A DNA stretch of 51,696 nt from Candidatus Gastranaerophilales bacterium. GTDB lineage: Bacteria > Cyanobacteriota > Vampirovibrionia > Gastranaerophilales > Gastranaerophilaceae. A model generated the notes under the pieces. That model worked only from the letters and a program-made list of their open reading frames with translations, was not told where the DNA came from and did not search any database. The translations under genes were made by a program, and so were the position numbers. Positions 1 to 51,696 of the stretch are shown in pieces. Location of the stretch: positions 1-51,696 of the forward strand of contig CALUWJ010000013.1 of NCBI GenBank assembly GCA_944324455.1. The letters are read 5' to 3'. The number at the start of each line of letters is the position of its first letter. Within the stretch, counting starts at the first letter, position 1.

Positions 1-558
1 CTTGGCTTGGCGAAAACAAGGAAGGCATAGGTGTGCGAAGTGCGCATGCGGCAAGCGTGGAGCTTGGCGCAAAGCACGTAGTCCGTACCGTAAATACAAT
101 AAAAGACCCATTATGGGTCTTTATATGGCGCGCTTGGAAACCTTTTGAAGCTCGAATTTAGTGCGACTGCACTTAATGAGAGCAAAAAAGGCACAAGGTG
201 TGTGCCGAGAACGCCGAAGCGTTGAGCTTTGGCGTTTGAGAAACCGTACCCGCCAAGCGCTCTAAAAATCAAAAAGACCCGCTATGGGTCTTTATATGGC
301 GCGCTTGGAGACCTTTTGACGCTCGAATTTAGTGCGACTGCACTTAATGAGAGCAAAAAAGGCACAAGGTGTGTGCCGAGAACGCCGAAGCGTTGAGCTT
401 TGGCGTTTGAGAAACCGTACCCGCCAAGCGCTCTAAAAATCAAAAAGACCCGCTATGGGTCTTTATATGGCGCGCTTGGAGACTCTGCCGAGAAAAAAGA
501 CTAAATGTCTTTTTTCGAGAGGGCAAAAGCGAAGCGGTTGCATCCCGAACAAGCGTCC

Positions 559-676
559 TTAAACAAGTGAACTTTAGTTCACAGGGTGAACTTAGTGAAC
601 GAAGTTTAAGGCATAGGTGTGCGAAGTGCGCATGCGACAAGCGTGGAGCTTGGCGCAAAGCACGGAGTCCGTACCG
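559..676 (+). repeat. 118-bp dispersed-repeat insertion (copy 1)
   Basis: Between the type B unit at 468-556 and the next terminator lies a block from CTTAAACAAGTG to GTACCGTAA. It is absent from the otherwise matching unit at 1128-1216, where CCTTAATACAAT is continuous. The block contains AGTTCACAGGGTGAAC, GGCATAGGTGTG and CCGTACC, which recur at about 12.9 kb and within rnpB. This is a filled site of a dispersed repeat. The exact ends and any target duplication are ambiguous by one to three bases. Confidence 0.75.
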
Positions 677-973
677 TAAATACAATAAAAGACCCATCAT
701 GGGTCTTTATATGGCGCGCTTGGAAACCTTTTGAAGCTCGAATTTAGTGCGACTGCACTTTATGAGAGCAAAAAAGGCACAAGGTGTGTGCCGAGAACGC
801 CGAAGCGTTGAGCTTTGGCGTTTGAGAAACCGTACCCGCCAAGCGCTCTAAAAATCAAAAAGACCCGCTATGGGTCTTTATATGGCGCGCTTGGAGACTC
901 TGCCGAGAAAAAAGACTAAATGTCTTTTTTCGAGAGGGCAAAAGCGAAGCGGTTGCATCCCGAACAAGCGTCC

Positions 974-1092
974 TTAAACAAGTGAACTTTAGTTCACAGG
1001 GTGAACTTAGTGAACGAAGTTTAAGGCATAGGTGTGCGAAGTGCGCATGCGGCAAGCGTGGAGCTTGGCGCAAAGCACGGAGTCCGTACCAT
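974..1092 (+). repeat. 118-bp dispersed-repeat insertion (copy 2)
   Basis: Near-identical to the block at 559-676 and in the same place relative to its type B unit (883-971). The few differences (for example GCGGCAAGCG here against GCGACAAGCG) indicate either recent duplication of the whole unit or gene conversion. A third, partial copy of the right half occupies about positions 22-92. Confidence 0.75.
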
Positions 1093-1229
1093 AAATACAA
1101 TAAAAGACTCTATATAAGAGTCCTTTATGGCGCGCTTGGAGACTCTGCCGAGAAAAAAGACTAAATGTCTTTTTTCGAGAGGGCAAAAGCGAAGCGGTTG
1201 CATCCCGAACAAGCGCCCTTAATACAATA

Positions 1230-1253
1230 AAAGACTCTATAAAAGAGTCCTTT
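1230..1253 (-). terminator. Intrinsic terminator of tRNA-Arg(ACG)
   Basis: On the minus strand GGACTCTTTTATAGAGTCTTTTATT forms a 6-bp hairpin followed by a T-rich run, immediately after the tRNA CCA. The same terminator design follows every unit of the array. Confidence 0.75.
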
Positions 1254-1254
1254 A

Positions 1255-1331
1255 TGGCGCGCTTGGAGGGATTCGAACCCCCGACCTTTTGGTTCGTAGC
1301 CAAACACTCTATCCAACTGAGCTACAAGCGC
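1255..1331 (-). tRNA. tRNA-Arg(ACG)
   Basis: The minus strand reads GCGCTTG, D-arm GCTC...GAGT, anticodon arm TTTGG-CTACGAA-CCAAA (anticodon ACG), T-arm with GGTTCGAATC, then CAAGCGC, discriminator G and an encoded CCA. All stems pair. ACG is expected to be edited to ICG to read CGN codons. It is the source of the acceptor sequences repeated in the array that follows it. Confidence 0.97.
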
Positions 1332-4731: not shown

Positions 4732-6045
4732 ATGACTAGAGCATATAAGGCAAAATGGATTATCCCATCTGATGGCAACATATATGAAAATTGCGCTTTA
4801 ATTGTTGATGAAGGCAAAGTGCAAGAAATAATAAAATCAGAAAATCTTGTTGAATCCAACTATTCCCATATTAAAGATTTTAATAACGCCGTAATAACTC
4901 CGGGGTTTGTTAATTTACATAACCATCTACAATATAGTGATTTACAAAAGGGAAAGGCGAAAAACCTAAGAGCCAGACTAAAAAGACTCTATACCATTTT
5001 TAAAAAACACTATTTTTTAGCAGGAATTTCAAAAAAATCATTTGTATATCGTCTTGCTAATCTTTTATCCGATTATTTTTGCATGACTAGAGAAGAAAAA
5101 ATAGCTTCATTTAAAAAAGGGGTTGAAATCAGCCTCTTAAACGGTACAACTTGTGTTGCACAATTATCAAAAGAAAGCAAATATTTTGAAATTTTAAATG
5201 AAATGCCCCTAAAAACTTATCTGTTTTTTGAATTATTTTCAGATTCTGTTGATTCAAGCAAAGATGAATTTAGAAATATCAAAAAGAAAATAGATAAACT
5301 TTTAAAACAAAAATCGCAAAACACATTTGTTGGAATTGCACCCCACAGCATTTGCTGCGTTCACAAAAGATTATTTAAAATACTTGTTAAATATTGCAAA
5401 AAAAATAATATCTTAATGACAATCAGATTAGCTGAATCTCAAGAAGAAATTGATTGGTTAAAACACGGATTTTCAGATATTGACTTATTGAACGAATTTA
5501 GCGGAAACAAAAAAATGGAGCCTGCCTTTAAAAATTTAACTCCTGCTCAATATTTAGAAGAATTAGGAGTTTTATCTAAACAATTAATAATATCATACGG
5601 TAATTTTTTATCTGCTTTTGATTTAGATTTATTATATAAAAATAAAGTTTCGTTAGCATATTGCCCTCGGATTAGTGACAATTTACACAATAAAAAATTA
5701 AATCTTGAAACAGTATTAGAATATTTTCCTAACAGATTTGGTTTTGGAGTTAATTCATTAGCTTTTAATGAAGATTTATCTTTATTGAATGAATTGAGAT
5801 ACGTAAATAACGGCGTTCTTAATGTTGTTGAAGCACTAAAATATTTAACAATTATCCCTGCTAAAATTTTAAGGCTAAACAACACCATAGGCTCTCTTGA
5901 AGCTGATAAAGACGCAGATTTTAATGTTTTTGAACTAAATGAAAATGAAGATTATAATGCCCTCTTGAATAAACAAAAACCAAACCATGTCTACATTAAC
6001 GGTAGACGAATAGTTAAGAGGGGCGAGCTTAATATAAAAAACTAG
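4732..6045 (+). CDS. Amidohydrolase-superfamily protein with degenerate metal site (437 aa)
   Basis: The overall pattern is that of the SsnA/TRZ-ATZ/chlorohydrolase deaminase branch. There is an N-terminal composite domain, then TPGFVNLHNH (HxH, residues 63 and 65), GIAPHSICC, then the expected I-H-x-A-E metal-ligand segment, which here reads TIRLAES (Arg at about 231 in place of His). The later His position is replaced (IISYGNF, about 288) and the final Asp motif reads FGVNS (Asn in place of Asp, about 341). CPRISDNLHNKKLN matches the family's CPRSN loop. So three of the usual five metal ligands are missing and classical hydrolase activity is doubtful. AAAGGTG precedes the ATG. The 3' end overlaps upp by 4 bp, convergently. 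Confidence 0.85.
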   Translation: MTRAYKAKWIIPSDGNIYENCALIVDEGKVQEIIKSENLVESNYSHIKDFNNAVITPGFVNLHNHLQYSDLQKGKAKNLRARLKRLYTIFKKHYFLAGISKKSFVYRLANLLSDYFCMTREEKIASFKKGVEISLLNGTTCVAQLSKESKYFEILNEMPLKTYLFFELFSDSVDSSKDEFRNIKKKIDKLLKQKSQNTFVGIAPHSICCVHKRLFKILVKYCKKNNILMTIRLAESQEEIDWLKHGFSDIDLLNEFSGNKKMEPAFKNLTPAQYLEELGVLSKQLIISYGNFLSAFDLDLLYKNKVSLAYCPRISDNLHNKKLNLETVLEYFPNRFGFGVNSLAFNEDLSLLNELRYVNNGVLNVVEALKYLTIIPAKILRLNNTIGSLEADKDADFNVFELNENEDYNALLNKQKPNHVYINGRRIVKRGELNIKN

Positions 6046-6704
6046 TCAATTGTATTATAAATTCTATCTCCTGCATCTCCAAGCCCCGGTAGAATATAAC
6101 CTTTAGAATTTAATGCTCTATCAAGTGCAGAAGTTACAATTTTCACTTTTGGAAATCTTGAATTAACTTTTTCAACACCCTCCGGTGATGAAATTAAACT
6201 CATAAACACAATATTTTCTTCCATTACACCTTTTGAAATGAAATTTTTAATTGCATCGATTGCGCTATTGCCTGTTGCAAGCATAGGGTCTAAAATTATA
6301 ACTTTAACTTTTTGCTTGTTTTCTTTAATTTCTTTTCTTTTATCGTAATACCAAACGGGTTCAAGCGTTTCTTCATCTCTATACATGCCGATATGATGAA
6401 CATTTGCAAAAGGCAATAAGTCTTGTGCTACTTCACAAAATATCATCCCCGCTCTTAATATTGGAGCTATAATTAATTGAGCCTCGTTATCAAAAACATC
6501 ACACACTGTTTTTTCTAGTGGAGTCTCAATTTCTTTTTTCATCATCGGCAAATCTTTAGTTGCTTCATATATCAATGAATAAGTTATTCTTTTTAGTGCA
6601 TTTTTAAATCTTTCACAATCGGTATTTTTATCTCTGATAATTGATAAATTTTGACTTATAATCGGATGATTTAGAATAACTATATTTTTTGCCAATGCTT
6701 TCAT
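6042..6704 (-). CDS. upp: Uracil phosphoribosyltransferase
   Basis: Converts uracil and PRPP to UMP in pyrimidine salvage, in the cytoplasm. The 220 residues are slightly more than the usual 208-210. Visible are the PRPP-binding loop LDPMLATGNSAIDAI (about 135-150), the conserved APILRAG near residue 80 (binding of the sugar-phosphate), and the C-terminal uracil loop ending in GLGDAGDRIYNT. It is transcribed after the small gene at 6717-7076, only 12 nt upstream, so the two probably form an operon. Nothing is odd about the key residues. Confidence 0.96.
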   Translation of the reverse strand: MKALAKNIVILNHPIISQNLSIIRDKNTDCERFKNALKRITYSLIYEATKDLPMMKKEIETPLEKTVCDVFDNEAQLIIAPILRAGMIFCEVAQDLLPFANVHHIGMYRDEETLEPVWYYDKRKEIKENKQKVKVIILDPMLATGNSAIDAIKNFISKGVMEENIVFMSLISSPEGVEKVNSRFPKVKIVTSALDRALNSKGYILPGLGDAGDRIYNTID

Positions 6705-6716
6705 TTGTTTTCCTTT

Positions 6717-7076
6717 TTAGCTGTATATATTTTTATCTTTTAATACGGAGAAAAAGTTATCTGTTTGTTTTAGTGCATCTTCAAGTTTATAACCTTTCTC
6801 AACAAGACCATCGCAATATTCCACCCAACTTTGTGCGTGCAAAGGATCTTGTGCATATTGCTCAATAGAACGCACAACATTTTTATTAATACCGGAATCC
6901 ATGTTAACTTGAGCATGACCCAAAGCACCTAAAACTTCCATAGAATCTGCAATAGGTTTAACATTTTCAGATTCGGGCGCAAATTGTTGAGCTACGGTTT
7001 TATCCATAGAAATATTTTTTCCTGTATTTTGCGCACTTACATATTTAGGATAATCACTTCTGATATCATTATTCAT
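6717..7076 (-). CDS. Small soluble hypothetical protein (119 aa)
   Basis: The start is supported by GGAGAG 7 nt before the ATG. The protein is acidic, with a disordered N-terminal 45 residues and a helical C-terminal half (SIEQYAQDPLHAQSWVEYCDGLVEKGYKLEDALKQTDNFF, given here in part as DPLHAQSWVEYCDGL). No signal peptide, membrane helix or known motif. It precedes upp by 12 nt and is likely co-transcribed with it, but nothing links it to pyrimidine salvage. Function unknown. Confidence 0.7.
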   Translation of the reverse strand: MNNDIRSDYPKYVSAQNTGKNISMDKTVAQQFAPESENVKPIADSMEVLGALGHAQVNMDSGINKNVVRSIEQYAQDPLHAQSWVEYCDGLVEKGYKLEDALKQTDNFFSVLKDKNIYS

Positions 7077-7282
7077 TAATTACTCTCCGGTTTTTCTCGA
7101 GTCTTTGCATAATAGCATCTATTATATAAAACGCATAATAAAATTTTTTTGCTATTAATATAGAAATTTTTTTATAAAAAATTCGATACCATCATAAATT
7201 TTATATTTCTTAATATTTTACCTTTCAATATATAATTTTGCAAGAGTTTTATTAAATTTTCATATTACATTTTTTTAATAAA

Positions 7283-7312
7283 TTGCCTTGATGAAAAATA
7301 AAATTATATAAT
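7283..7312 (+). promoter_or_regulatory. Promoter of the fliMN-fliOPQR operon
   Basis: TTGCCT (7283-7288), an 18-nt spacer and TATAAT (7307-7312). A sigma-70-type start would fall near 7319, at the GTG codon itself. This implies a leaderless mRNA or a start codon further downstream. Confidence 0.5.
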
Positions 7313-7316
7313 ATTT

Positions 7317-8576
7317 GTGGGTTTTTATAGCCAAAAAACGGACATTAGCGTGGATTTTAAGAAAGAAAATATTTTTTATAATAAAAATATTAACGTGCTT
7401 GTTTCAACATTGGAACAAGCTTTGAAAAGCGCTATGGAAACTTTTTGGGAATTAGATTGCATAGTTCGTTTATTAGCTTTAAATGATTTTAAAAATTTAA
7501 GAGATGAATTCTTAATTAAAAATATAGATTTTTTCTCCGGACAAATAAAAGTTGAGGCCGATAAAGCTGTTGTTATAAGGCTTTGCAAAAATTTTATTAA
7601 AAATCATCTGGATTTAACTTTAGATAATTCAAAAAAAGATTTTAACTTAAAAAAACTAACTGCGCTTGAAATAAAAATTTTAAACAGTTTTTGCGAATTT
7701 ATTTATAAAAAATTAAAACCTGCGCTAAAATCAACAAAAGAAATAAAATCAAGCGAAAAAAGCGAAAAAAACGTTAATTTTATCTTTAATGTAATGTCTG
7801 ATAATTCAAACGTATCAGTTATTATGATTTCCATTCCTTTAGACAGATTGCAATTTGTTGATTTAAAAAAAATAAAAGCCTTTGATGACACTGATTTTAT
7901 AAATTCACAAACAACAGTTAAAGTTAGAGCAGGAAGCTCTAAAATAACACTTGAAGAACTTAAAAATTTAACTTGCGAAGATATTATTCTTTTAGAAAAC
8001 AGTAAATATGATAAGTTAACTTTAATTTCAGGCGATTTAAAAAAAGATTTCAAGGTAAAAGTTAATCCCGATATGATAATTAATCTTAATCAGGAAGAAA
8101 ACGAAGAAATAAATTATGAAATAAATAATGAGGTAGAAATGGAAAAAAATCTCTGGGACGATATACAAGTTGAAATAAATGCAGAATTTGACAAAGTCAA
8201 AATGACTATTGGTGAATTAAAACAAATTACACAAGGTCAAATTGTCGATTTAGGCTCTGTTTTTGAAAATGAGATTTCTTTATATGTTGAAGAAAAAAAG
8301 GTTGCAAAGGGGGATTTAATTATCATTAACGATAGATACGCTGTAAGATTAAATGAAATATTAAGTACACCCAAACCAAATCCTATACCAAAACCACAAC
8401 CGCAAAGACCTCAACAACCGGCTCAACAAAGAGCACCACAACAAAGACCTCAGCCTCAAGCGCAAGCTCAAAGACCTCAGCCTCAAGCGCAAAACCAACC
8501 ACAACCGCAAGCGCAAAAGGCGCAAACTTCAAAAGTAGTGGATGAAGAATTTGACTATTCAGATTTTGAAAAGTAA
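7317..8576 (+). CDS. Flagellar motor switch protein, FliM/FliN-like with two SpoA domains
   Basis: The C-ring component would bind the rotor and export gate. Residues about 1-190 are a FliM-like middle region without recognisable CheC motifs. Two SpoA (FliN/FliM C-terminal) folds follow: about 198-255 (VKVRAGSSKITLEELKNL, KVKVNPDMIINL) and about 278-345 (VEINAEFDKVKMTIGELKQI, DLGS, YAVRLNEIL). A proline/glutamine-rich tail of about 55 residues (357-410) ends in an acidic FDYSDFEK. Tandem SpoA domains in one chain resemble FliY or a FliM-FliN fusion. First gene of fliO-P-Q-R, 13 nt before fliO. The GTG start has no ribosome binding site and is uncertain. Confidence 0.82.
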   Translation: MGFYSQKTDISVDFKKENIFYNKNINVLVSTLEQALKSAMETFWELDCIVRLLALNDFKNLRDEFLIKNIDFFSGQIKVEADKAVVIRLCKNFIKNHLDLTLDNSKKDFNLKKLTALEIKILNSFCEFIYKKLKPALKSTKEIKSSEKSEKNVNFIFNVMSDNSNVSVIMISIPLDRLQFVDLKKIKAFDDTDFINSQTTVKVRAGSSKITLEELKNLTCEDIILLENSKYDKLTLISGDLKKDFKVKVNPDMIINLNQEENEEINYEINNEVEMEKNLWDDIQVEINAEFDKVKMTIGELKQITQGQIVDLGSVFENEISLYVEEKKVAKGDLIIINDRYAVRLNEILSTPKPNPIPKPQPQRPQQPAQQRAPQQRPQPQAQAQRPQPQAQNQPQPQAQKAQTSKVVDEEFDYSDFEK

Positions 8577-12839: not shown

Positions 12840-13196
12840 TTTAATAATTTTTAACATTTGGTAATATCCCCAAACGAGCGAACTTTAGTTTGCAGGGCAA
12901 ACTTAGTGAGAGAAGTTTGGGGCATAGGTGTGTGCAGCTCGTGACGGCAGTCCGTTGAGGACTGGCGGACAGAGCGGATACCGTACCTTTTGAAGTTTTT
13001 TTCTTACTCCGACGGAGTTAGAAAAAAACGAGAAAGGCACAAGGTGTGTGAAGCACGCAGGCAGGAGCGTTGAGCTCGTGCCAAGTGCGGATACCGTACC
13101 AAAGCGACGTAGAAATTTGCACGTAGTGCAAATTTTACAGGAGCATACATGTAAAGCAAGCGTGGAGCTTTGGCGCAAAGCACAAAATCTATACTA
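12840..13196 (+). repeat. Dispersed-repeat island (two or more partial copies)
   Basis: A gene-free stretch with much higher G+C than its surroundings. The first copy (about 12877-12988) runs from GCGAACTTTAGTTTGCAGGG through GGCATAGGTGTGTG to GGATACCGTACC. The second (about 13010-13100) has a T/A-rich hairpin (TTTTTTTCTTACTCC and complement), then AAGGCACAAGGTGTGTG and again GGATACCGTACC. A third fragment (13150-13186) matches GCAAGCGTGGAGC...GCGCAAAGCAC of the tRNA array. The same family lies in the array at 1-1100 and inside rnpB. Short open frames here are not convincing genes. Confidence 0.8.
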
Positions 13197-13240
13197 AATA
13201 CCTTTTTGGCTCTAATTCTTTTTATATAACTCTACGCACC

Positions 13241-51623: not shown

Positions 51624-51696
51624 GCCCTGGTAGCTCAGCTGGATAGAGCAACTGCCTTCTAAGCAGTAGGTCATGCGTTCGAATCGCATCCAGGGT
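51624..51696 (+). tRNA. tRNA-Arg(TCT), cut by window end
   Basis: GCCCTGG acceptor, D-arm GCTC...GAGC, anticodon arm ACTGC-CTTCTAA-GCAGT (anticodon TCT), T-arm GCGTTCGAATCGC, then CCAGGGT. The acceptor closes with one G-T pair. Only the discriminator base and CCA (if encoded) lie beyond the window. It reads AGA/AGG codons, abundant in this AT-rich genome. Confidence 0.95.

Follow-up and report, generated by a model that had tools for sequence, protein, structure and literature searches.

The DNA downstream of tRNA-Arg(ACG) in a 51,696-nt stretch of a Candidatus Gastranaerophilales genome (here termed the window; it is one entire contig, C13, of a 1.76-Mb assembly in 40 contigs) is best described, at a probability we put near two in three, as stacked insertions of a DNA element that is specific to one family, mostly lacks genes and targets tRNA and tmRNA gene ends. 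A unit comprises an inverted copy of the terminal arm of the neighbouring tRNA, a core hairpin, and 11 nt of the tRNA end with its outer flank, this flank being the terminator on the 3' side of a gene and the upstream region, in antisense, on the 5' side. The evidence lies in the distribution of the element, the rule that sets its junction, the inverted arm, a constant orientation and the duplications that surround it, and it points to an undescribed integron-like mode of DNA insertion rather than to RNA decoys.

The original prediction, that six tRNA-like units of two alternating kinds follow the tRNA gene, each with its own terminator, is borne out: there are three units of the short kind (A, ~89 nt) and three of the long kind (B, 135 nt), in the order claimed (outward from the tRNA: short, short, long, short, long, long), and a terminator-like hairpin stands after each 3' arm. 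From the tRNA outward, the features are:

1255..1331, minus strand: tRNA-Arg(ACG), the anchor of the array (ARAGORN; Rfam tRNA 70.2 bits); the copied end is the last 11 nt before its CCA, nt 63-73, CTCCAAGCGCG
1217..1254, minus strand: terminator spacer F1 after the tRNA, an F1-type hairpin AAAGGACTC..GAGTC
1128..1216, minus strand: unit A1, 5' and 3' arms 1216-1210 and 1138-1128; left arm GCGCTTG plus a remnant of the inverted T-arm, core 1183-1142 (CTCTCG-hairpin-TCGGCAGAGT), right arm CTCCAAGCGCGCCA
1023..1095, minus strand: block C, a dispersed hairpin repeat (repeat family D3), in the spacer of unit A2
883..971, minus strand: unit A2, arms 971-965 and 893-883; left arm ACGCTTG
847..882, minus strand: terminator spacer F2 (terminator scan)
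712..846, minus strand: unit B1 (135 nt), arms 846-840 and 722-712; multi-hairpin interior GGCGGGTACGG...
608..680, minus strand: block C (repeat family D3) in the spacer of unit A3
468..556, minus strand: unit A3, arms 556-550 and 478-468; left arm ACGCTTG
297..431, minus strand: unit B2 (135 nt), arms 431-425 and 307-297
126..260, minus strand: unit B3 (135 nt), arms 260-254 and 136-126
1..125, minus strand: terminator F2 and block C (87-24), cut by the contig end

Every unit ends in CAAGCGCGCCA followed by a terminator, and the seven copies of CAAGCGCGCCA in the whole 1.76-Mb genome are accounted for by one in the tRNA and six in the array; the reversed control pattern has 0 matches. Since the array runs up to position 1 of the window, where the contig starts, six units are a lower bound, and the array goes on past this edge. 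Two terminator types, F1 (AAGGACTC..GAGTC) and F2 (AAAGACCC..GGGTCTTT), are mixed within the one array, the tRNA strand carrying 11 terminator-like sites against 2.6 expected; the terminator scan also picked up a near-identical copy of the F1 spacer hairpin at 1128-1100. Block C (TACGGACT..CGTGC...CACACCTATGCC) is a third repeat block, with three spacer copies in the array, at 1088-1025, 673-610 and 87-24. Acceptor pairing is 6/7 in units A2 and A3, in which ACGCTTG gives an A.C mismatch.

Further hairpin repeats of the block C/B type lie elsewhere in the window (12872-12932 and 13156-13201), away from any tRNA, and in about 20 places genome-wide. The other edge of the window (51624-51696) stops exactly at the 3' end of tRNA-Arg(TCT). 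Among the 37 tRNAs of the genome, seven are within 100 nt of a contig end where 0.29 would be expected (P ~3e-8, counted by reading), so the assembly has probably been broken at other tRNAs by similar repeats.

When defined by a covariance model, the A core (CTCTC, a hairpin of variable stem, and TCGGCAGAGT) was recovered from 108 of 117 sampled genomes of the family, representing 38 of 41 genera, with at least 40 matches in the richest genome; those lacking a match include G058, G081, G095, G105 and G121. It was absent from all of the approximately 94 sampled genomes of other families in the class, and the 51 genomes that matched in a class-wide draw all belong to its own family. The A core recurs at many tRNAs besides Arg, its neighbours including Arg, Phe, Lys, Met, Leu, His, Glu, Pro, Thr and Ile genes as well as tmRNA genes. 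In congeners it lies downstream of Arg, Phe, Met, Lys and Leu genes, fused in each case to the end of that gene, and antisense copies lie upstream of tRNA 5' ends too, fused to the reverse-complemented 5' end (loci L061, L073, L075 and L141). In the genome of the window itself, tRNA-Gly(GCC) and tRNA-Val(TAC) are trailed by units that bear the tail of their own tRNA and other interiors. Upstream of its tRNA-Lys(TTT), the 5' part of the tRNA is duplicated around a different hairpin element (L102 1373-1572) with a right arm of 17 nt, from which it appears that tRNA 5' ends are used by other cores too.

Orientation is nearly invariant. In a sample of 89 hits, 45 had a tRNA within 700 nt and 42 of these 45 were directed away from it, tRNA 5' ends being represented 24 times and 3' ends 18 times; when 30 contig-internal hits were picked by model score alone, 26 had a tRNA within this distance and all 26 pointed away. 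By our estimate, based on ~40 tRNAs in 1.9 Mb, such proximity would arise by chance in a few percent of cases. About half of the sampled copies had no nearby tRNA by ARAGORN, some of them situated at tmRNA genes or contig ends and others within dispersed palindromes. Loci L198-L213 of genome G203, for instance, carry the same core within a dispersed palindrome (CCCCACCC...GGGGAGGG) that occurs in many places, mostly away from tRNAs. Two matches to the core pattern on viral contigs were set aside, as the context of the element was missing from them.

The junction obeys a simple rule. Outward from the core, after ...GGCAGAGT, come 11 nt of the neighbouring tRNA, namely nt 63-73 at 3' ends and nt 11-1 in antisense at 5' ends; across 40 distinct tRNA-adjacent right arms, the median exact match to the end of the neighbouring tRNA was 11 nt. 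Those 3' junctions that could be placed on the tRNA end lie at nt 63, and 14 of the 17 mapped 5' junctions at nt 11, in both cases over many isoacceptors; three on the 5' side depart from this, at Thr (18), Pro (19) and Ile (27), and some right arms failed to map. These positions were corrected by hand from raw script values of 62 or 63 (3') and 11 or 12 (5'), because ARAGORN sometimes adds one base, as were two Met junctions, whose raw value of 66 arose from CCA-like letters at the end of the acceptor.

The left arm is likewise derived from the adjacent gene, inverting the acceptor and T-arm at 3' ends and the acceptor and D-arm at 5' ends. Over 70 units, the left arm scored a mean of 19.3 with the tRNA beside it and 13.4 with other tRNAs (p=5e-12). 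In the A unit of the window it reads GCGCTTGTTCGGGATGC-AACC, the antisense tRNA being GCGCTTG-GAGGGATTCGAACC. A control with the same strand of the tRNA gave no clear difference (19.3 vs 19.4), because the left flank on the 5' side also holds direct copies of the tRNA end. A permutation test of left against right arms gave means that differed only modestly (5.23 vs 4.57), with 0 of 2000 permutations as high, and a unit's own arm was the single best in 0 of 72; the scores against the tRNA itself discriminate more sharply. In some units (Pro, Met, Glu, tmRNA) a direct copy of the tRNA arm plainly stands ahead of the core, which thus has the look of an insertion 11 nt from the end of a tRNA copy; as a general rule, such copies are weakly supported at 5' ends (p=0.016) and do not reach significance at 3' ends (p=0.17).

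Where the outermost copy could be compared, the tRNA end and 4-40 nt of flank are repeated on both sides of the element, the duplicated flank stopping near the start of the left arm (33 nt at L055, 27 at L076, 19 at L178 and 16 at L069). Copied end and flank together make a direct duplication of ~15-50 bp. Its inner boundary is fixed, at nt 62/63 or 11/12, and its outer one is variable, so that it resembles a long target-site duplication with one end fixed. At the syntenic locus in five species (the window and four congeners) the arrays differ, the DNA upstream being ~87-89% identical and the A units 95-100% identical; several arrays are near-perfect tandem repeats, and tandem duplication alone could yield near-identical copies. 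At L050 and L047 a copied end has a CCA that the tRNA itself does not, so that the copies are of different origins, either imported from elsewhere or remnants of an older tRNA end.

In the window the segments between units hold solely terminators and other hairpins, and most units have no gene. At tmRNA loci, similar boundaries enclose gene-bearing segments of 1.4-2.2 kb. One such locus (L244) has two elements 2.2 kb apart that enclose two open frames, together with a diverged, displaced copy of the tmRNA end (distal CCTCGTCTACA vs CCTCGTCTCCA in the tmRNA); a second (L245) has open frames, one encoding a DUF2971 protein, in segments of 1.4 and 1.9 kb that are bounded likewise. A third locus (L243), where we found no recognisable tRNA, has four elements with a common right arm, CTCCACGCGTA, the first adjoined by a DarT/DarG-like toxin-antitoxin pair (darT-darG, 5669-7416), with a 520-aa frame separating the third from the fourth. 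None of ten proteins scanned from these three loci was an integrase.

Candidate mobilizing enzymes were sought in the genome of the window and in relatives. The former encodes two Xer-like proteins and one short integrase, and all three tyrosine recombinases fall below the cut-off of TIGR02249 (integron integrase). The short integrase (P0001) was rejected as a mobilizer, being absent from several array-bearing congeners and having no element near the short-integrase loci examined. A 178-aa minimal tyrosine integrase is encoded at L109 1477-2010, ending at the edge of contig C19, and its family is shared by the majority of congeners, though not by every one. Neither reverse transcriptase genes nor those for a Y1 transposase (Y1_Tnp) correlate with the copy number of the element; the latter was detected neither in the genome of the window nor in six of nine other genomes tested; genomes G151 and G203 carry the element, yet have 0 Y1_Tnp matches. 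RAYT-type Y1 transposase genes are found at loci L234, L235 and L236: the palindrome GTTGGGCAGGTATGCCCAAC or a variant of it stands beside the gene at L234 and L236, and an A element adjoins it at L234 and L235.

The original prediction had allowed either for transcribed tRNA mimics, serving as substrates or decoys for RNase P, the CCA-adding enzyme or arginyl-tRNA synthetase and selected for an acceptor stem and CCA, or for a mobile element family bounded by tRNA ends; our results support the latter and make the former very unlikely. It is true that each unit of the window has a CCA terminus and could form a closing stem of 6-8 acceptor-like pairs, and that the units fold more stably than shuffled sequences (z -3.05 for A; -5.07, in unit B1, and -4.54 for B), but hairpin-rich DNA would give the same stability. 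The CCA, rather than being retained independently of the gene, tracks it: units at those Arg (genome G004), Phe, Met, Lys and Leu genes that encode no CCA as a rule lack it as well. Nor is acceptor pairing generally maintained in relatives. Their left arm often starts at nt 8-15, that is 7-14 nt inside the tRNA end, with little or no acceptor part; many 3' units have the T-arm only and no 5' acceptor strand, and the Arg units of several congeners set ACACTTG against CAAGCGC. Copies in antisense upstream of tRNA 5' ends are placed where a tRNA-like 3' end cannot form. G.U pairs are not commoner than A.C in the stems (13 vs 18 sense, 16 vs 13 antisense, both small numbers), Rfam scans gave nothing but tRNA and tmRNA above the gathering score, and a terminator precedes every unit, the sole promoter-like site found on the tRNA strand being upstream of the tRNA, with none inside the array. 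Nonspecific stability, the lack of a G.U signature or RNA family, and the terminators together leave a mimic improbable. The accompanying argument, that retention of both acceptor strands speaks against attachment-site scars, which would keep only the 3' end, does not hold: the left arm is the tRNA 3' end in reverse complement, so a resemblance to the 5' acceptor strand arises by construction.

Two further explanations are less likely. Template switching at tRNA and terminator hairpins could, with no dedicated mobile element, passively generate inverted copies that unequal crossing-over then multiplies; left arms that invert the adjacent tRNA arm, near-perfect tandem arrays and terminator spacers that are themselves prone to foldback would all fit this account, to which we accord a minor chance; against it stand the recurrence of the same core at many different tRNAs across one family, with none found in other families, a single 11-nt junction at both tRNA ends, and constant orientation. 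That the units are leftover attachment sites of decayed, ordinary tyrosine-integrase tDNA islands seems to us improbable, even though such islands usually target the 3' ends of tRNA and tmRNA genes, displaced and sometimes diverged copies of tRNA or tmRNA ends do occur at distal ends (L062, L244, L050), and L244 and L245 contain gene-bearing segments. One core serves many unrelated tRNA sequences, 5' ends are used as often as 3' ends, each site has an inverted copy of the tRNA arm, the segments examined contain no integrase, and most units are gene-less.

Among known systems, the arrangement comes closest in anatomy to integron cassette arrays, in which segments with toxin-antitoxin-like genes or no gene each end in a folded attC site, the arms of which are inverted and flank a hairpin interior that varies. 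Here too, an array of segments ends in putatively folded sites, and the segments carry toxin-antitoxin-like genes or are gene-less; however, the arms are copies of tRNA ends rather than attC RYYYAAC/GTTRRRY (no R'/R'' arm pair was detected in units A1 and B1), insertion is at tRNA or tmRNA genes, and no protein of the genome passes the integron-integrase cut-off. The tyrT repeats of E. coli and their RtT RNA also form tandem repeats after a tRNA gene, each with the tRNA 3' end, and resemble the array in both respects; they differ from it in that the present element has left arms, a common core and many tRNAs including 5' ends, and Rfam scans gave no match to RtT up to E=1. REP/REPIN sequences are likewise short palindromes dispersed in intergenic DNA, but RAYT neighbours carry a different palindrome, as noted above. 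tDNA islands restore their target and leave the displaced fragment at the far end (Islander, PMC4383910). A restored 3' end with a displaced far copy is seen here at L244 and at L050 and L047, whereas the element is short, mostly gene-less, not tied to one tRNA sequence, also present at tRNA 5' ends, and marked by a fixed 11-nt junction and a conserved hairpin core, with no tyrosine integrase found adjacent to its sites in the segments scanned (L243-L245). Mitochondrial hairpin elements, in the portion of the published account drawn on here (PMC2800124), are short, dispersed single or double hairpin repeats with complementary stem changes and an unknown mechanism. The alignment of the A core shares with the double hairpins two hairpins of variable stem in a conserved, dispersed frame, a likeness of form for which we claim no homology; the same portion of that account describes no tie to a tRNA coordinate or inverted target copy, unlike the element reported here. 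Our search of the literature on rtT, palindromic elements at tRNA genes and integrons of Gastranaerophilales found no description of it.

Our best reading is therefore of DNA-level, site-specific, integron-like cassette boundaries, from which we infer movement, recombination at folded sites and cassette exchange. The array would be built by repeated insertion or duplication at one end, so that every unit inherits the tRNA tail (with CCA where the gene encodes it) and the terminator; left arm, core and right arm may together fold as a single, hairpin-rich site of recombination, and whatever lies between one such site and the next could move as a cassette, as happens in integrons. More tentatively, and at somewhat less than even odds, this may be a cassette-exchange system unlike known integrons, in which any tRNA or tmRNA gene end is usable, the enzyme sets the junction exactly 11 nt inside whatever the sequence, probably guided by the folded form of the tRNA gene or by base pairing with the inverted arm, and an inverted copy of each new target is captured; gene cassettes such as darTG would travel likewise.

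Across this family of gut bacteria, the junction is set by a tRNA coordinate, not by sequence, at both ends of many tRNA and tmRNA genes, which sequence-specific tDNA integrases as usually described do not explain; structure- or guide-directed DNA insertion in bacteria would thereby become testable. The element may also explain assembly breaks at tRNA genes in these bacteria, and could mark a reservoir of cassettes, comprising toxin-antitoxin and unknown genes, in uncultured members of the gut microbiota.
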